From contig CP070627.1 of assembly GCA_020355945.1 (NCBI GenBank), forward strand, positions 5,993,406 to 6,010,507: DNA of 17,102 bases, written 5' to 3'. Made by a program: the position numbers and the translations under genes. The stretch's first letter is position 1, and each line of letters starts with the position of its first letter. Shown here one piece after another: positions 2,881 to 14,200 of this stretch. Under the pieces are notes generated by a model. It did no database searches and was not told the origin of the DNA. It saw nothing but the letters and a program-made list of their open reading frames with translations. Source of the DNA: Candidatus Aminicenantota bacterium (GTDB lineage: Bacteria; Acidobacteriota; Aminicenantia; UBA2199).

Positions 2881-4350
2881 TTATGCCTTTGCCTTACTTT
2901 TTATCATGGAGTGGTAGGATAGAAAGGCCATGTACAAATAGCCAAACTGGAATAATAGGAGAAAGGGTAAGGCACCCCATATACCTTCAAGAATGGTTAT
3001 GGCCACCACAACGGTATAGTAAATTCCCAATATCAGTTCCACCAGGGAGATAAAATGGTTTCTCCGCCCTTTATATTTTTTCTTATGCCACTTTTCTCTT
3101 TTTCTTTCATTTTGTATGCCAAATTTCGGTGTCCTGACAAACTCGGTTTGTTTTTTGGAGAATGCTTCCAGCACGGCCACGGAATTATTGACCGAAAGCC
3201 CAATACCCATGCTCATTAGCGCAGGTAGATATTTTATTTTTGACTTCCAGTTGGGATACAGGTTTTTTTGCGAGAAGATATAAAAAAAAGACATGGAAGC
3301 GGTGGTCACCAGGATTATCGGGATATCAATGGCAAACCATTGTTCCAATCCCAATTCAATTCTTAACATCATCACCGGGAAAACCGATATAGCAAAGGGG
3401 ATCATAATAAGGTAATTGAAATTGGACAACAGGTGTATCAGGGATTCGCTTTTTATTTTCATGGGTAATTTTGCTTTGAGGATACTGCCTACCAGTTTTT
3501 TGGCGGTTTGAATAGACCCTTTGGTCCATCGGTGCTGCTGTACCTTGAAGGCAATGATATCCACCGGGAGTTCTGCGGGGGCGACATATTGAGGTAAATA
3601 GATAAATTTCCATCCTTTAAGTTGTGCCCGGTAGCTCAGGTCCAGGTCTTCGGTTAAGGTGTCGTGATGCCAGCCGCCAGCATCTATGATAGCGGCTTTT
3701 CGCCATATCCCGGCAGTGCCGTTGAAATTAAAGAACCGCCCGGTCTGGTTCCGGGCCGTATGTTCGATGACAAAATGACCGTCCAGGAAGATCGATTGAA
3801 TCTTAGTGATTAATGAAAATTTTTCATTGATGTGCCCCCACCTGGCTTGAACCATGGCGATTTTGGCATCGGTAAAATAGTGAATGGTGTTGTTGAGAAA
3901 GCCGGGCTGGGGGATAAAATCAGCATCAAATATAGCAATATACTCTCCCCTGGCAATTTGCATTCCTTCTTCCAGGGCACCGGCTTTAAACCCCCGCCGG
4001 TTGGTGCGATGAATTAATTGGATATCATACCCCTTTTCTTTGTAATAATCCACCCTCTCCCTGGCAATTTCCGTGGTCTCATCCGTAGAATCATCCAGCA
4101 CCTGGATTTCCAGCCGGTCTTTAGGGTAATCTATTTGAGTGGTATGATCGATTAACCGTTTTACCACGTACATCTCGTTATAGACAGGCAATTGGATAGT
4201 AACCCGGGGTAGAGTTTCAAATTCTTTTTCCGGCTTTTGGGTGGTTTTCTTGTTTTTTAGATAGAGATAGAGAAGAAAATATCGATGGACACCGTAAATC
4301 GCTAAGGTGCCCAGCATCAGGAAATATACTATCAACACTGCTTCATTCAT
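2881..4350 (-). CDS. Processive family-2 glycosyltransferase (cellulose/glucomannan-synthase-like), membrane protein
   Basis: A 489-aa inner-membrane glycosyltransferase that probably polymerises a beta-linked envelope or extracellular polysaccharide from nucleotide sugars. Seen: an N-terminal membrane helix (about 5-30); a GT-A domain with LDDSTD (Asp86/87), DAD (Asp142/144), TED (233-235) and the processive-enzyme signature QQHRW (271-275); then about four to five membrane helices to the C-terminus. The motif set is that of GT2 enzymes such as cellulose synthase and CslA-type mannan synthases; the sugar cannot be told from sequence. No PilZ c-di-GMP domain is seen. A TTG nine bases upstream is in frame, but the AAGG of the ribosome site is 10 nt from this ATG and only 1 nt from the TTG, so I chose the ATG. 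A strong promoter lies about 80 bp upstream (4436-4464). It leads the operon that continues into the amidase. Confidence 0.87.
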   Translation of the reverse strand: MNEAVLIVYFLMLGTLAIYGVHRYFLLYLYLKNKKTTQKPEKEFETLPRVTIQLPVYNEMYVVKRLIDHTTQIDYPKDRLEIQVLDDSTDETTEIARERVDYYKEKGYDIQLIHRTNRRGFKAGALEEGMQIARGEYIAIFDADFIPQPGFLNNTIHYFTDAKIAMVQARWGHINEKFSLITKIQSIFLDGHFVIEHTARNQTGRFFNFNGTAGIWRKAAIIDAGGWHHDTLTEDLDLSYRAQLKGWKFIYLPQYVAPAELPVDIIAFKVQQHRWTKGSIQTAKKLVGSILKAKLPMKIKSESLIHLLSNFNYLIMIPFAISVFPVMMLRIELGLEQWFAIDIPIILVTTASMSFFYIFSQKNLYPNWKSKIKYLPALMSMGIGLSVNNSVAVLEAFSKKQTEFVRTPKFGIQNERKREKWHKKKYKGRRNHFISLVELILGIYYTVVVAITILEGIWGALPFLLLFQFGYLYMAFLSYHSMIKSKAKA

Positions 4351-4435
4351 TATACTCAAGCCTTGGCGCGTTTACACCTTCACACCTTTGCGTCCGATTT
4401 CCTGTATATTGTTGACGTATTTAACATTAGAGAGA

Positions 4436-4537: not shown

Positions 4538-7012
4538 TTATTGCAATCCTTGCTGCCATTGAGATTTATCGCATTGGGGCAGTTCATCCGGGTTGGTTTT
4601 ATAAAATACGTTATTCACGTCTTTTTTAGGCAGGGAACCGAAATAGAGAACATCCATGGGACAATGGACCACACAGGCGGAACAGCGCACACATTCCACA
4701 TCGTTCATGGGAATGCCTTTGTTGGCATAGTTCATGACATCGATGCCCATGTGGCAGACTTTGGTGCAAATATTGCAAGAGATGCATTTTTTCTTATCCG
4801 AAAAAATCCGGTAGCGGGAAAAGCGAGTATAAATATGCATCAGCGCCGCCAGGGGACAGAAAAACCGACACCATACCCTGCCGCTCATAAAGAAATAAAC
4901 GCCCACACCCAGGACCCCGGCAAAAATGACATCCACCACAATGGAATAGATCATCCGGGAGATATCCAATAGGTAGGGTCTTGGTGTATGGATAATGGGA
5001 ATGTTGACTCCTCCCAGTACAGCCAGCAATTTCAGCCCGGTAATGATTAAGGCGGCCACCAGGACCCATTGGCCGGTATTTTCCCATTTTTTAGCTTTTG
5101 GGCCGTGGGGTGCCAGGGTGCGATACTCATCGCCCAGGGTTTCGGCCAATGCACCGCAGGAACAAATCCATCCGCAGTAAGCGCCTTTGCCCCACCGGTA
5201 CACGATATAATAAATAAACCCGAAGGTGAATAAGAGAGTATAAATCAACCAGAAGGCCGTAATTTTATCGGCAAACAGCCCGTAAATATTCAATGGCCAG
5301 GCCAGGACCAGGCGATAGGCATGGCCAAAATCACCACCCGGGAATACTTGCGTCAATAAAAATCCATTCTCACCACCTAATAAATTCCACTGTTTCAAAA
5401 GAGGCAGTATGATTTCCGGCAGCAGAAACAATGGAAATACCTGGATCAGGATCAGGGTCCAGGTTTGTCGTTTAATGTAGACGGTGGGGTTCACATGCAT
5501 CCGTCTCAGGCCAAAGATGAAGATGGTAAGCGAATATAAAAAGGTATACCAGAAACCCGGGTATTTGCCCAGGAACTTCAACCCAAAATAGGTGGAGCTA
5601 AAATAAACAAAGCAAAAGAAAATGGCAACCACTATAAAGTAGGTATATTTAAAGCTTTTCCAGGCAGTGGCGGTATAATTTTTAATGGATTTAAAAAAAT
5701 GAACCAATACAATGATCCCTGAAATCACAAAAGCAATAAAACACAAGTACCCCACAATGCCATACAGGGAAGAGGTCCAATTCCATTTGCCTGCTTGTTC
5801 AAAGAAACCGCCTTTAAAGGGATATGCCAGGAACTTTCCCCAAAATTCCGGATTCAACAATTGGCTGAACATATATCCCCATGTCACTGGTTCTCCGTTA
5901 TGTGAAAGGATAGCCTGGGCACCGGATTTGCCAAAATAGATTACACCGGCAAAGGTCAGCAATGCAAAAAACATCCATTTCTCAATCCCGGAAAGGATGC
6001 CTTCGATTTTAACGTTGATTTTTTTAAAAAAATTCAATGGCAATTGTTTACCGATCATCACGAAAACCATTGAATTATCAATGGTGATTTCTTTTTTGTC
6101 TTTATCAATGAGTATTACTTTGTCCGGTGTGATTTCTTTCACATTGGTTTCCAGCATTAATTTTATTTTTCCCTGGCTGACCAGTTGGTTGATTTTTTTG
6201 ATATTTCCCTCTTTGGGGCGGGAGAAGGTGGGTTTTCGATAGGAAAGGGTAACGGATTTGGCATACTCGGCCGCGGCGATGGCAATTTCCAAAGCCGAAT
6301 CACCACCGCCCACTACCAGGATATCCTGGTCTTTGGCATCCTGGGGGTCGATCAACCGGTTAAACACTTTTTCCAGGTTTTCCCCGGGGACTTTCAGCAT
6401 GCGGGCATTCCCGCTTTTGCCCGCGGCCAGGACCACCCGAAGGGCTTTATAGTTTTTCTTTTTAGTTTGGATTTCAAAGTAATCGTTATGTTTTACAATA
6501 TGGTCTGCATTGACTTCTTCTTCGATGGGTAAGTTTTTATTTTTGATTTGCCGGTGCAATTCTTCCAGCAGGCTTTCTTTGACTCCTTCATTGATTTTCA
6601 AATCCGATACCTGTTCAACTCCTTCGGGTTCTGCATAAATAGGTTTTTCTCTGGGAAAGTTGACAATGGTATTAAAGGTTTTTGCGGCTTCTATAATTTT
6701 AAATTCATAGTTATGTTTCAATGCTTCCAGTCCGGCGGCAATGCCTGCGGGTCCGGCGCCGATGATAATAAAATCCAGGACATCTTTTTCTTTGGTTTTT
6801 CTTAACTCCTGGAATTTGGCGTCCTCCCGGAATTGGCGAATCCTTTTGGTGCCGCTTTCAGCCGCCAGTTTCAAAAGGGGAATACCGGTCAAATCTCCGA
6901 TCACATAAATCCCTTTTACTGAGGTTTCGCCGGAAGCATCGATTTCCGGGTATTTTTCCACTTCACCCGTCGGGGCGTCTTTTTGCAGCCAGTTAAAGTA
7001 TTTTCCAAACAT
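4538..7012 (-). CDS. Membrane redox fusion: permuted thioredoxin-reductase-like flavoprotein plus NapH/CcoG-like polyferredoxin
   Basis: An 824-aa protein expected to pass electrons between NAD(P)H/FAD and iron-sulfur clusters at the membrane. Residues 28-54 (GETSVKGIYVIGDLTG onward) look like the final FAD-binding segment of thioredoxin-reductase-type enzymes, yet they precede the FAD Rossmann motif GAGPAG (85-90) and the NAD(P) motif GGGDSA (235-240). The flavin part ends near 338 and runs into membrane helices without a second C-terminal segment. No redox CxxC lies in the flavin module. Residues 345-710 hold about eight helices with CGWICSCG (612-619) and RVWCRFFCP (712-720), typical of NapH/NosR/CcoG polyferredoxins. 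Two 4Fe-4S clusters follow: Cys743/746/749/753 and Cys774/777/780/784. It has its own promoter (7092-7120); AAAGGGG stands about 8 nt before the ATG. Partner and substrate are unknown. Confidence 0.85.
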   Translation of the reverse strand: MFGKYFNWLQKDAPTGEVEKYPEIDASGETSVKGIYVIGDLTGIPLLKLAAESGTKRIRQFREDAKFQELRKTKEKDVLDFIIIGAGPAGIAAGLEALKHNYEFKIIEAAKTFNTIVNFPREKPIYAEPEGVEQVSDLKINEGVKESLLEELHRQIKNKNLPIEEEVNADHIVKHNDYFEIQTKKKNYKALRVVLAAGKSGNARMLKVPGENLEKVFNRLIDPQDAKDQDILVVGGGDSALEIAIAAAEYAKSVTLSYRKPTFSRPKEGNIKKINQLVSQGKIKLMLETNVKEITPDKVILIDKDKKEITIDNSMVFVMIGKQLPLNFFKKINVKIEGILSGIEKWMFFALLTFAGVIYFGKSGAQAILSHNGEPVTWGYMFSQLLNPEFWGKFLAYPFKGGFFEQAGKWNWTSSLYGIVGYLCFIAFVISGIIVLVHFFKSIKNYTATAWKSFKYTYFIVVAIFFCFVYFSSTYFGLKFLGKYPGFWYTFLYSLTIFIFGLRRMHVNPTVYIKRQTWTLILIQVFPLFLLPEIILPLLKQWNLLGGENGFLLTQVFPGGDFGHAYRLVLAWPLNIYGLFADKITAFWLIYTLLFTFGFIYYIVYRWGKGAYCGWICSCGALAETLGDEYRTLAPHGPKAKKWENTGQWVLVAALIITGLKLLAVLGGVNIPIIHTPRPYLLDISRMIYSIVVDVIFAGVLGVGVYFFMSGRVWCRFFCPLAALMHIYTRFSRYRIFSDKKKCISCNICTKVCHMGIDVMNYANKGIPMNDVECVRCSACVVHCPMDVLYFGSLPKKDVNNVFYKTNPDELPQCDKSQWQQGLQ

Positions 7013-7120: not shown

Positions 7121-7134
7121 CCGCCCCATAAAAC

Positions 7135-7217
7135 TGGGCAGGGAGGGATTCGAACCCCCGTACCCCGAAGGGAGTAGGTTTACAGCCTACTGCCTTTAAC
7201 CACTCGGCCACCTGCCC
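7135..7217 (-). tRNA. tRNA-Tyr (GTA)
   Basis: Class II cloverleaf: acceptor GGGCAGG/CCTGCCC, D-arm GCC/GGC, anticodon stem GTAGG/CCTAC with loop CTGTAAA (anticodon GTA), a variable arm closed by CCC-TTCG-GGG, T-loop TTCGAAT, and discriminator A. CCA is not encoded. It is the last tRNA of the operon. Confidence 0.96.
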
Positions 7218-7222
7218 AAATA

Positions 7223-7294
7223 TCGGGGAGAGAGGATTCGAACCTCTAACTGCTGGCTTCCAAAGCCAACCGTCTACCATTGACTTACTCCCCG
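7223..7294 (-). tRNA. tRNA-Pro (TGG), with A at position 37
   Basis: Acceptor CGGGGAG/CTCCCCG with C1-G72 and discriminator A73, which fits proline identity. T8-A9 are present, the D-stem is GTC/GAC, the anticodon stem TTGGC/GCCAG encloses loop TTTGGAA, and the T-arm is AGAGG/CCTCT. Numbering is regular, so the anticodon is TGG. Position 37 is A, whereas bacterial tRNA-Pro normally carries G37, the m1G site. CCA is not encoded. Five bases separate it from tRNA-Tyr. Confidence 0.85.
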
Positions 7295-7300
7295 TCGCTG

Positions 7301-7373
7301 CAGGAGCGGTAGGACTCGAACCTACAATCCGGGAATCAAAGTCCCGTGTCATACCCAATTTAACGACGCTCCT
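7301..7373 (-). tRNA. tRNA-Gln (TTG)
   Basis: Acceptor AGGAGCG/CGCTCCT, D-stem GTTA/TGAC, anticodon stem CGGGA/TCCCG with loop CTTTGAT (anticodon TTG), T-arm GTAGG-TTCGAGT-CCTAC, discriminator G73 as usual for glutamine. CCA is not encoded. It is the first tRNA after the leader at 7374-7618. Confidence 0.94.
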
Positions 7374-7772: not shown

Positions 7773-8777
7773 ATGATTAAAACTAACATCCTTTTTTTTA
7801 TAATCTCAATAACCTTTGTTTTCTTTACACTTTGCGTCTCACTTTCATGGGGTGCTGAATCGATTCGGCCGGTAAGCACTTATTCTATCGTGGCCTATGA
7901 CGAAGCCAGCGGCCAGATGGGAGTCGCAGTACAGTCCCACTGGTTTTCCGTAGGGCCGATTGTTCCCTGGGCAGAATCAGGTGTTGGGGTAGTGGCTACC
8001 CAATCCTTTGTGGAAGTCTCTTACGGCCCGTTGGGTTTCGAATTGATGCGCTCAGGAAAAACCGCACAAGAAGCACTGTCCGCTCTTCTTTCCATCGATG
8101 CCAATAAACATGTCAGACAGGTGGCCATGATCGATGCCCGGGGTAGGACAGCCGTGCATACCGGTAAAAAATGCATCGCCGAAGCCGGACACCATAAAGG
8201 AAAAAACTATTCATGCCAGGCCAATATGATGGAAAAAAACACCGTATGGAAAGCCATGGCAAACGCCTATGAAACCACCCCCGGCCCTTTGGTGGACCGC
8301 TTGATGGCAGCTTTACAAGCAGCGGAAAAAGAAGGCGGCGATATCCGCGGCAGACAATCAGCCGCTGTCATAGTGGTCAATATCAAATCCTCGGGCGTCC
8401 CCTGGAAAGACCATATCTTTGACCTGCGCGTCGAAGACCATCCCCAACCCTTGAAAGAATTAAAACGACTGATCACAGTTGCTAAAGCCTATATCCATAT
8501 GAACAAAGGTGATGAATACCTGACGGAAAACAACGTCAAGGCTGCACTCAAAGAGTATACCACTGCCATGAACATCTACCCGGGAAACCCGGAAATGATG
8601 TTTTGGCCGGCAGTAACCATGGCAGCCACCGGGAAAGTGGAAGAAAGCCTCCCGTTATTCAAAAAGGTCTTTTCCCTGGATAAACGCTGGGCAGAGTTGT
8701 TGAAACGTCTACCTGGAGCAGACCAATTCCCAAAAGATGAAAAACTGATGAAAAAAATCCTTTCCCAACTGGATTAA
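7773..8777 (+). CDS. Exported DUF1028 (Ntn-hydrolase-like) protein with TPR-like C-terminus
   Basis: A 334-aa protein. Residues 1-28 are a signal peptide (hydrophobic ILFFIISITFVFF core, cleavage near SWG/A). Residues about 33-230 are a full DUF1028 domain: TYSIVAYD start, GVAVQSHWFSVGPIVPWAE, GVGVVATQSF, a YGPLG segment, VRQVAMID, the GGDIRGRQSAA motif and a DLRVEDHP end. The family is predicted to share the Ntn-hydrolase fold; its substrate is not established, and some members carry peptidoglycan-binding domains. Residues about 232-315 are helical and resemble one or two TPR units (AYIHMNKGDEYL..., PGNPEMMFWPAVTM). GGAGG stands 5 nt before the ATG. It is a single gene between hairpin repeat copies 2 and 3, convergent with the GH25 gene. 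A possible -10 overlaps TATCATTATAA at 7751-7761, without a clear -35. Confidence 0.85.
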   Translation: MIKTNILFFIISITFVFFTLCVSLSWGAESIRPVSTYSIVAYDEASGQMGVAVQSHWFSVGPIVPWAESGVGVVATQSFVEVSYGPLGFELMRSGKTAQEALSALLSIDANKHVRQVAMIDARGRTAVHTGKKCIAEAGHHKGKNYSCQANMMEKNTVWKAMANAYETTPGPLVDRLMAALQAAEKEGGDIRGRQSAAVIVVNIKSSGVPWKDHIFDLRVEDHPQPLKELKRLITVAKAYIHMNKGDEYLTENNVKAALKEYTTAMNIYPGNPEMMFWPAVTMAATGKVEESLPLFKKVFSLDKRWAELLKRLPGADQFPKDEKLMKKILSQLD

Positions 8778-8851: not shown

Positions 8852-10093
8852 TTATTTCTTTATAAAGAAAAAAGCATAAATGTGTTGATCAGGTTTGGTT
8901 ACCTTGATCATGAAATATTCGTTACCTAACAGCCTTTTTCTTACTCTATACTTGAACGTACCGAATTTTCCCTTTCGAGGGATTACCAAAGCCACTTCTT
9001 CTAAAAGCAGTTGGTTCTCCTGGTCATAAACATGGAAATAGGGAATTTCTCCCTCTTCTTTTGTGATCAATTTAACCTGGTAGACCCCTTTTTTGTAATC
9101 TTTTTGTTGATGAATGAAATCCCTGGGGAAATTGATATTGCCTAAGTTGATCTCATCACTAAAGCTGGTGGTTTCCACAGTGGGAGTTTCAGGCTCTGTT
9201 TTTAAAACAGGCGGCACTTTTTCCTCTATACCAATAGGTGTTTCCGGTTCTACTTTAGCGGGTGTCTCTTTTTCCTCTATAACATCAGGGGGTTCTTCAT
9301 CTTCTTCTAAAGCCTGATCCATTTCTTCTTCTTTCCGGGAATTTTTAACAAAATCGAGTAGTTCCCGGGCAGACCCATTGAATTTATCCAGGTTCACCTG
9401 GACACTAATTCCTTTTACTGTTACGTTGGCGGAGTATTGCCAGAAGGTCCAGGTTTTTCCCTCCCACGCGCCCCACATTTTAGGAGCCGCAGAAACCGTG
9501 TCATACTCTGCCGCCACCAGGGCATAGCGGCTGAATCTTCTATCTGTCAGGTAATCCCTGGCAAAATCAGGACTGGCAAAAATGATTGGTTTCGCTCCCA
9601 GTTCTTTTTCTACCTCTTCCAACCAGATAAACACCCTGGTGATAAAGTTTTCGTAGGCCACTTCATCCACTTCGTCAAATTTACCGGATTCCAGGTCCAG
9701 CCACGGCGGAAGATCGTTTTCTTTCAGTTTTTTTACGGTCTTAATGAATAACTTTACCTGGGCTTTGGCATCTCGCTTTGCATTAAAAGAATGATAGGGC
9801 CCCCGTAAAATACCTGCCCGTTTGGCACCTGGCCAATTTTTTTTAAAATAAGGGTCCACATGATCAGTGCCCCCAGTAGCCCTGACAAAAACAAAAGAGA
9901 TTTTCGGTTCATTTTGTTTGACCTGGTCCCAATCGATTTTCCCCTGGAATTGCGAGACATCTATCCCGAACAATTGGGCATCCTCTTGAGGTGAAGTAAG
10001 CGAAAAAGGCAATGTGTCTTGCTGCCCGGTAATAGAAAGCGAAAGCGGACAAACAATTAAAATAAATGCCAATAACTTTAATTTTTCCAACAT
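8852..10093 (-). CDS. Exported GH25 muramidase (lysozyme) with acidic linker and extra C-terminal domain
   Basis: A 413-aa protein predicted to hydrolyse the MurNAc-GlcNAc bond of peptidoglycan. Residues 1-25 are a signal peptide. The GH25 domain spans about 42-255: FGIDVSQFQG with Asp45, IDWDQV, VFVRATGG, PPWLDLE with the D-x-E pair Asp133/Glu135 typical of the active site, and W-FWQYS then VNLDKFNG at the end. Residues about 255-320 are an acidic Glu/Pro/Thr linker, and the last 90 or so form a beta-rich, lysine-rich domain I do not recognise. GGAGG is 7 nt before the chosen ATG; an ATG 24 bases upstream is in frame, but the ribosome site lies between the two. It follows the multi-domain secreted protein by 106 bp on the same strand and may share its transcript. 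Confidence 0.88.
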   Translation of the reverse strand: MLEKLKLLAFILIVCPLSLSITGQQDTLPFSLTSPQEDAQLFGIDVSQFQGKIDWDQVKQNEPKISFVFVRATGGTDHVDPYFKKNWPGAKRAGILRGPYHSFNAKRDAKAQVKLFIKTVKKLKENDLPPWLDLESGKFDEVDEVAYENFITRVFIWLEEVEKELGAKPIIFASPDFARDYLTDRRFSRYALVAAEYDTVSAAPKMWGAWEGKTWTFWQYSANVTVKGISVQVNLDKFNGSARELLDFVKNSRKEEEMDQALEEDEEPPDVIEEKETPAKVEPETPIGIEEKVPPVLKTEPETPTVETTSFSDEINLGNINFPRDFIHQQKDYKKGVYQVKLITKEEGEIPYFHVYDQENQLLLEEVALVIPRKGKFGTFKYRVRKRLLGNEYFMIKVTKPDQHIYAFFFIKK

Positions 10094-10158
10094 CCGTTCA
10101 CCTCCATAATTTAACATTCCTATATTTTAATGCAATTGGCCAAAAAAAGAAAGAGAAA

Positions 10159-13348: not shown

Positions 13349-14200
13349 ATGGTATACTTTGAAATCGATGCTAATAAATGTATAAAATGCTCGACATGTA
13401 TCGAGGTTTGCCCGTCGATTGTTTTAACATTAGGCGATAACTCTTCGCAAGTCTCACGGCCGGAATATTGTATCTCTTGCGGGCACTGTGCGGCTGTGTG
13501 TCCCCAGGATGCTGTTATCCCCATTGAAAACAAGGGAAATCGGGCATTTTCTATTCAACCGATTCCTCGGGATTTACCAGGAGATCAAGCCCTATTCCAA
13601 AAAAAGCGGTCCATCAGGAAATACAAACCCGATACCCTCGATCAACACACGATAAAAGAGCTAATTCAATACGCGGAAAAAGCACCCAGCGCCCACAATT
13701 TCAGGAATCGAGAATACCTGGTGGTTCTTGATAAAGAAAAGATAGATGAAATGGAAAAATTGGTTGCCAAAACCTACAAATCTCTTATTCGCCGCCTGAA
13801 TCCCTTGATGATTAAGATCATATCCCTGTTCTCAAAAGCCCTGGCACATGAACTAAAGGAAATGGTCCCTGGCTTCAAACTCCTGGTAAAAAAGGTATCG
13901 GAAGGGGAATCGCCAATATTTCGCCATGCCCCTTGTGTGATTTTCATTATTGCCCCTAAAGGGGGAAGTAATTCCAAAGATGATTGCACGGCAGCGCAGC
14001 ATTATATGATGCTGTACGGGCAAACAAGAGGAATCGGCAGTTGTATTATCGGGTACGCTCAATATGCCCATAAACCACTGGAGCGATATCTTGGCATACC
14101 CGGAAACAAGCAGATATTTGCTATATCGGTTTATGGATATCCAACCTATCAATATAAAAAGACAGTCCTGCGAAACGAACCTCCTATTATTTGGAAATGA
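13349..14200 (+). CDS. Ferredoxin-nitroreductase fusion (2x 4Fe-4S plus FMN nitroreductase domain)
   Basis: A 283-aa cytoplasmic oxidoreductase. Residues 1-60 are a bacterial-type 2[4Fe-4S] ferredoxin: Cys11/14/17/21 and Cys41/44/47/51. Residues about 84-283 are a nitroreductase-fold flavin domain with the family start RSIRKYKPD (87-95), APSAHNFRNREYLVV, the mid-domain AAQHYMMLYGQTRGIGSC helix and a short C-terminal YGYP-type strand. Such fusions are common in strict anaerobes, where ferredoxin-fed clusters should reduce FMN; the physiological substrate is usually unknown. AAGGAG is 6 nt before the ATG. It is a single gene, convergent with the M28 peptidase gene, which ends 41 bp away. Confidence 0.9.
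   Translation: MVYFEIDANKCIKCSTCIEVCPSIVLTLGDNSSQVSRPEYCISCGHCAAVCPQDAVIPIENKGNRAFSIQPIPRDLPGDQALFQKKRSIRKYKPDTLDQHTIKELIQYAEKAPSAHNFRNREYLVVLDKEKIDEMEKLVAKTYKSLIRRLNPLMIKIISLFSKALAHELKEMVPGFKLLVKKVSEGESPIFRHAPCVIFIIAPKGGSNSKDDCTAAQHYMMLYGQTRGIGSCIIGYAQYAHKPLERYLGIPGNKQIFAISVYGYPTYQYKKTVLRNEPPIIWK

Follow-up and report, generated by a model that had tools for sequence, protein, structure and literature searches.

In a 17,102-nucleotide stretch of DNA from a Candidatus Aminicenantota bacterium (contig CP070627.1, positions 5,993,406 to 6,010,507; the whole stretch is hereafter called the window), the minus strand encodes a protein, here named CP, in which the second half of a flavin adenine dinucleotide (FAD) domain has, as judged from its sequence, almost certainly been moved ahead of the first half (residues 28-64). 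With its second half in that place, the FAD domain would therefore be contiguous, with the NAD(P) domain after it, and FAD is very probably bound by this permuted fold. As a whole, and with the organoarsenical-pathway context considered below included, CP is read here with moderate confidence as a circularly permuted NAD(P)H dehydrogenase domain of the YpdA/TrxR type (TrxR, thioredoxin reductase), joined in a single chain to a membrane electron wire.

Translation of the minus-strand open reading frame (ORF) bore out the motif positions and their order as given in an earlier, sequence-only reading of the window (Table 1), and plus-strand frame 1 over the same region is interrupted by many stops. 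The closing segment reads E29-T-S-V-x-G-I-Y-V-I-G-D40, then L41-T-G-x-P45 (-L-L), and the earlier claim that it lies at the N-terminus, before the GAGPAG and GGGDSA motifs, is upheld by its profile alignment onto the canonical C-terminal FAD segment of YpdA and TrxR, which also argues against an unrelated fold for residues 28-54. More precisely, 33 ORFs for YpdA and TrxR, taken from genomes of the relatives and including one that later proved to be mis-picked, served to build a canonical profile of 323 columns, and the profile of the CP core (residues 77-345) aligns to columns 5-264 of this canonical profile. The N-terminal profile (residues 1-76) was placed by hhalign at columns 276-311, inside the part that the core lacks, with a score of 43.0 and a probability of 91.3%; as controls, nine windows of the second half reached at most 14.6 and 50 column shuffles at most 17.8. 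In an alignment of 118 rows, CP included, 117 cover the closing segment and one starts later. G39, D40 and P45 are invariant in all 117 rows having a letter there, CP among them, and a simple closing-motif pattern is found in 110 of these 117, the seven misses retaining G-D-[LI]-T-G-[IVL]-P with small changes ahead of it. Between residues 321 and 420, the motif pattern found no second closing motif in any of the 117 rows, and all 118 rows agree in the length of the linker leading into helix 1 (338-345), in agreement with the earlier statement that no ordinary closing segment follows the NAD(P) domain.

The AlphaFold2 model of CP (predicted local distance difference test score 85.5, predicted template modelling score 0.80) displays a strand at residues 35-37 and a helix at 47-63 in the moved segment; since residues 1-76 hold no other three-residue strand, the secondary structure of the model suggests that strand 35-37 joins the sheet of the core. 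Weak hints also come from PDB sequences, glutathione reductase 6n7f (281-334) aligning to query residues 15-68 with an E value of 0.00065, no stretch being significant alone, and the second stretch of TrxR 5uwy (253-281) aligning to residues 17-45 with a score of -2.6. Scoring after rearrangement gave a mixed outcome over three profiles. Putting the segments back in the ordinary order raised the score against the combined profile from 151.1 for the native order to 153.8, the core alone reaching 145.2 and shuffles no more than 147.4, and it raised the score against the TrxR profile from 75.5 to 76.8 (core 70.8, shuffles at most 72.7).

The sequence-only reading had described the flavoprotein as TrxR-like. 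This stands for the fold class, whereas among canonical proteins YpdA/Bdr turns out to be a nearer relative than thioredoxin reductase: of the named flavin families, YpdA (TIGR04018) matches most closely, with 150.9 bits against a cut-off of 339.9 and over profile positions 1-262 of 316 only, and TIGR01292, the low-molecular-weight thioredoxin reductase, gives 78.0 bits against 343.45. The CxxC redox pair had rightly been reported as missing from the flavin part of CP, as residues 1-340 contain no Cys; any CxxC in this part is seen in a single row out of 117. The YpdA active-site Cys sits in a GGGPCG loop, and the GAGPAG of CP has an Ala at its place. Near GGGDSA, R259 is found in 118 of 118 rows and R265 in 117.

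As for the C-terminal half, the models contain eight long membrane helices, and together with the sequence they confirm the helix number of about eight, the two CGWxC/WCxxxCP regions and the two 4Fe-4S clusters noticed earlier. The Cys residues in question are C613-GWI-C617-S-C619 around the first CxxxC, W714-CRFF-CP720 at the second, and 743/746/749/753 and 774/777/780/784 in the ferredoxin part. All 12 Cys of the two CxxxC motifs and the two clusters are kept in 118 of 118 rows, seven ferredoxin Cys included, C784 being present in the 117 of 117 rows that have a letter there. Pfam recognizes Pyr_redox_3 at 82-335, Fer4_5 at about 698-733 and the two-cluster ferredoxin Fer4_10 at 736-785. NapH/MauN (TIGR02163) is the closest named family of this half, with 61.1 bits for whole CP and 61.2 for the membrane part against a cut-off of 213.05, and the NosR profile gives 28.8 on the membrane part against 1000; among 75 members, the NapH profile matches all and the NosR profile 71. 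The flavin mononucleotide (FMN)-binding domain characteristic of NosR is absent from the 23 Pfam matches of CP, whose N-terminus is a Pyr_redox domain without any strongly hydrophobic stretch in residues 1-60. The structure search found no solved structure matching the eight-helix NapH-like part with its clusters.

According to the proposed mechanism, hydride transfer from NAD(P)H would reduce FAD, which would then hand single electrons to CP's own 4Fe-4S clusters on the cytoplasmic side, by analogy with TrxR-type ferredoxin-NADP reductase, the single-electron route being suggested by the lack of a thiol nearby. After the clusters, the next station of the electrons would be the membrane CxxxC site, followed by a membrane or extracytoplasmic acceptor. 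The gene neighbourhood of the relatives suggests that this acceptor may be part of the ArsS/DUF547/TIGR04282 pathway, which concerns arsenosugars or related glycolipids. The path from NAD(P)H through FAD to iron-sulfur centres is likely; that CP serves an organoarsenical/DUF547 pathway is the leading, unproven context, and is proposed tentatively.

A scan of genomes, one per species, yielded 370 loci encoding a relative, the best 80 of which were kept. The scan patterns were derived from the C-terminal part of CP, so that the N-terminus was not selected for; nevertheless, the alignment begins no later than query residue 5 in 78 of the 80 loci. Of the two exceptions, L059 is truncated by a contig edge, and L040 is aligned by tblastn from residue 4, its mechanically assigned ORF beginning at query residue 22. 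As to how widespread the order is, NCBI names place 74 of the 80 loci in 20 phyla, including records named Magasanikbacteria and Peregrinibacteria; single phylum labels may be wrong, because nearly all record titles indicate metagenome-assembled genomes (MAGs). The nearest relative, L001, is 81% identical to CP. In a protein database, 3113 relatives were found at E <=0.001 among 7998 scored candidates, and among the best 120, which were listed, source names such as 'thioredoxin reductase', 'NosR/NirI family regulator', 'NAD(P)-binding domain-containing protein' and similar occur. By sequence comparison, CP thus belongs to a real, widespread family in which the order is kept across many phyla.

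The permuted order is not unique to CP, since it is also present in other proteins of the relatives' genomes. One such architecture, of ferredoxin type, runs from an N-terminal hydrophobic stretch through two 4Fe-4S motifs, the closing segment and the Rossmann part to the NAD(P) domain, with which it ends. Another combines in one chain an FHA domain, CxxCH haem motifs of a multihaem cytochrome c, a ferredoxin, the closing segment and the core; in L141, the protein of this kind that was scanned, Pfam finds FHA, cytochrome c3, Fer4 and Pyr_redox. In the eight aligned proteins of these two architectures, the closing segment stands directly before the Rossmann part. Relatives of L107, of the ferredoxin type, are labelled thioredoxin reductase or YpdA family by some sources. 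Planctomycetota ORFs of 515-1133 residues (e.g. G283, G325, G331, G432) were also noticed as candidates for additional fusions, the listed matches of which cover the flavin part only or little beyond. When a tree was built from the core only, a single branch (support 90/85, 91% of 200 bootstrap trees) set apart the 41 permuted rows chosen for it, with YpdA beside them. A single permutation with several later fusions would account for this grouping; the support is moderate, not strong, and makes a permuted flavoprotein class of single origin probable.

Inspection of the neighbours for an electron acceptor, as had been advised on the basis of the sequence, shows DUF547, ArsS and TIGR04282 as recurrent neighbours. 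Counted with profiles built for this analysis, the neighbour families in the 80 loci are DUF547 (29, the commonest), GT87-like (15), GT2 (12), ArsS (12), TIGR04169 (7), CelA-like GT2 (5) and ArsM (5); a DUF3179 set in 12 loci is unreliable. Chosen neighbours exceed the curated cut-offs for ArsS (419.7 > 300), TIGR04169 (156.5 > 120), DUF547 (86.8 > 27), GT87 (44 > 25) and MTAP (300.5 > 274.85), as do five of six TIGR04282 and one of two TIGR04283 neighbours; the GT2 and ArsM examples pass none and an arsenate-reductase-like protein lies below its cut-off. At L013 (4873-5967, plus strand), a protein with a Rieske domain and an NADPH-dependent FMN reductase domain is encoded directly upstream of the CP gene, and a similar start was seen by eye in L009. 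Genome-wide searches, which covered 74 of the 80 genomes and 14 named control genomes, found ArsS in 51 CP genomes (48 over cut-off) and one control, DUF547 in 62 and no control, and TIGR04282 in 69 (59 over cut-off) and one control. Within 10 kb of the CP gene, DUF547 is found in 28 of the 62 genomes bearing it, ArsS in 13 genomes and TIGR04282 in 16 (10 over cut-off), at least one of the three in 35 of 74, and ArsS or TIGR04282 in 19 of 74; the comparison figure for TrxR, read by eye, is 1 of 24. These 74-genome counts are not independent events, because the genomes were chosen for holding CP and are partly related, a problem that is lessened by evenly drawn samples of Planctomycetota and Bacteroidota. 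In the former, TIGR04282 at E 1e-15 occurs in 22 of 24 CP genomes against 77 of 175 others (p 5e-6; 1e-5 without the centre genome), and in the latter ArsS occurs in 7 of 9 CP genomes against 73 of 189 others (p 0.024).

A number of observations weigh against the permutation or against the context proposed for CP, and some of them speak for other explanations. With the YpdA profile, reordering brought no gain (core 170.2, native 172.1, reordered 171.9, shuffles up to 173.3), so that the rearrangement scoring as a whole is mixed across the three profiles; besides, of the 200 strongest couplings only 25 are between the moved segment and the core, against 19% of all pairs, at an effective depth of 139. 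Both results would suit a moved segment that is a regulatory or dimerization add-on, FAD being closed in trans or not bound. This is nevertheless very improbable, given that G39 and D40 are as conserved as the GxGxxG loops and that the position directly before the Rossmann part is retained in the two other architectures. An N-terminal frameshift or assembly error, for which no point in favour was found, is refuted by the relatives, since separate genome records show the same start region in 78 of the 80 loci, and its probability is close to nil; the permuted order is thus real.

Turning to function, no activity is known for CP, and none of nine window proteins scanned matched ArsS, DUF547 or TIGR04282. 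At the curated TIGR04282 cut-off, the Planctomycetota co-occurrence falls to 14 of 24 against 63 of 175 (p 0.031; 0.049 without the centre genome), which indicates that CP genomes often hold diverged TIGR04282-family transferases; without the centre genome, the Bacteroidota value becomes p 0.047, and 73 of the 80 ArsS genomes in that sample do not have CP. Moreover, 23 of the 74 CP genomes, many of which are MAGs, lack ArsS, and L001 has ArsS, TIGR04282 and DUF547, all on contigs other than that of CP. The weak co-occurrence over the cut-off, the 39 of 74 genomes having none of the three families inside 10 kb (contig ends included) and the invariant polar residues within the membrane helices (Y489, Y493, R504, Y512, Q516, Q524) would be compatible with a general respiratory NAD(P)H:quinone, or reverse quinol:NAD(P)+, oxidoreductase, whose closeness to arsenosugar genes would be incidental or regulatory. 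We consider this rather unlikely, as the linkage to those genes recurs across phyla and as Magasanikbacteria and Peregrinibacteria, in whose records the family is present, mostly lack respiratory chains. Alternatively, CP might carry electrons of NAD(P)H through the membrane to a thiol outside the cytoplasm, reducing the CASxxCP pair of DUF547 in a role like that of DsbD with thioredoxin. The rank of DUF547 as commonest neighbour would agree with such a role, as would its sequence features, namely each Cys of the pair in 30 of 31 neighbours (e.g. L050:3248-4081(-)) and many N-termini that look signal-like by eye; a His is present in 31 of 31. Yet the CxxxC sites and clusters of CP are predicted to be cytoplasmic, no cofactor was identified that would carry electrons across the membrane, and DUF547, to which Pfam assigns no function, may instead bind metal or be a hydrolase, all of which makes this role improbable. 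The residues that are invariant or nearly so within the eight helices do not include a His, so that no haem route through the membrane is apparent. To return to the organoarsenical context, its most far-reaching form, in which the YpdA-type domain, permuted once and with its FAD domain closed in one stretch, would be a plug-in NAD(P)H-to-iron-sulfur module fused to ferredoxins, FHA-multihaem cytochromes and the eight-helix wire, and in which the membrane version would be the dedicated reductant supply of organoarsenical (arsenosugar/arsenic glycolipid) assembly with a partner such as DUF547, is unlikely to hold in full.

The surroundings of the CP gene in the window are collected in Table 1. 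The downstream glycosyltransferase, the sole shared neighbour tested, is 44% identical over 488 residues to one near CP in L055, and its family is found in 5 of the 80 loci. Three tRNA genes lie upstream of CP on the same strand (7134-7373).

Table 1. Features of CP, of its surroundings in the window and of other permuted proteins (positions refer to the window unless a locus is named)
Feature	Position	Strand	Remarks
CP gene	4538..7012	minus	permuted YpdA-like flavoprotein + NapH-like membrane polyferredoxin; ATG at 7012, reads down to 4538; 824 aa
Residues 28-64, putative FAD-closing segment and following helix, N-terminal	6821..6931	minus	profile alignment, conservation, model
Residues 77-338, FAD Rossmann part and NAD(P) domain	5999..6784	minus	canonical YpdA/TrxR profile, columns 5-264/323
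GAGPAG, residues 85-90, FAD ADP-binding loop	6743..6760	minus	translation and alignment
GGGDSA, residues 235-240, NAD(P)-binding loop	6293..6310	minus	translation and alignment
Residues 342-704, eight transmembrane helices	4901..5989	minus	model; N-in/C-in by positive-inside count
CGWIC, residues 613-617, first CxxxC	5162..5176	minus	predicted cytoplasmic side; C613, C617 in 118/118 rows
WCRFFCP, residues 714-720, second CxxxC(P)	4853..4873	minus	predicted cytoplasmic side; C715, C719 in 118/118 rows
Residues 743-784, two 4Fe-4S binding motifs	4661..4786	minus	Fer4_10 at 736-785; conserved Cys
Membrane family-2 glycosyltransferase	2881..4359	minus	Glyco_tranf_2_3; next gene downstream, 178-bp gap
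DUF1028 protein with TPR tail	7773-8777	plus	67% identity to a protein of L039 that is encoded a few genes away from CP and ArsS
Ferredoxin fused to nitroreductase domain	13349-14200	plus	
Amidase_2 protein	1490-2845	minus	look-alike near CP in L001, by eye
DnaB-like ATPase protein	3-1472	plus	look-alike near CP in L001, by eye
Glycosyl hydrolase family 25 (lysozyme-like) protein	8852-10117	minus	
Second architecture, ferredoxin-type	L107:976-2316; L108:1480-2808; L091:1462-2931; L093:922-2310; L144:1116-2618	plus; minus; minus; plus; plus	~440-500 aa
Third architecture	L141:900-4328; L142:1810-5109; L143:3-3005	plus; minus; plus	~1000-1140 aa

Each part of CP is of a known kind, and no description of the family, of the permutation or of the domain combination was found in the literature searched. 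In this class, a flavoprotein fold that is among the best studied would have undergone circular permutation in nature. The permuted form is retained in 20 named phyla, occurs in no fewer than three fusion architectures, and illustrates how a two-piece FAD domain may become one piece wired to iron-sulfur carriers. Besides, the recurrent closeness to ArsS, TIGR04282 and DUF547 provides a testable hypothesis, namely that arsenosugar formation in bacteria includes a redox step and that DUF547 has a role of this kind.

Among known systems, NapH/MauN and NosR share with CP the CxxxC motifs and the two C-terminal 4Fe-4S clusters; unlike NapH, for which four helices are given where PMC9012536 describes it, CP has eight. 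As presented in the main text of the 2021 eLife survey of NapH-like flavinylated systems (PMC8238504), where 'pyridine nucleotide' and 'arsen' have no occurrence, the membrane iron-sulfur module is an interchangeable part, and most NapH-like proteins carry an extracytosolic FMN domain. CP has the same kind of membrane module as the systems described there, from which it differs by its predicted cytosolic, permuted NAD(P)H-FAD domain. On the flavin side, the bacillithiol disulfide reductase YpdA/Bdr (PDB 7a7b, 7a76, 7apr) is the best match to residues 77-338 by sequence, profile and fold and the neighbouring group of CP in trees, whereas CP stands apart from it through its permuted order, its Cys-free flavin part, its fused membrane polyferredoxin and a score far under the cut-off. 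TrxR-type ferredoxin-NADP reductase (PDB 3ab1, 5ygq, 3lzw, 6gas) is also a match to CP in its flavin fold. By analogy, CP would resemble this enzyme in principle, electrons passing from NAD(P)H through FAD to an iron-sulfur centre and no dithiol taking part. Such reductases have the ordinary domain order and are separate proteins, whereas in CP the order is permuted and the iron-sulfur partner lies in the same chain and in the membrane.

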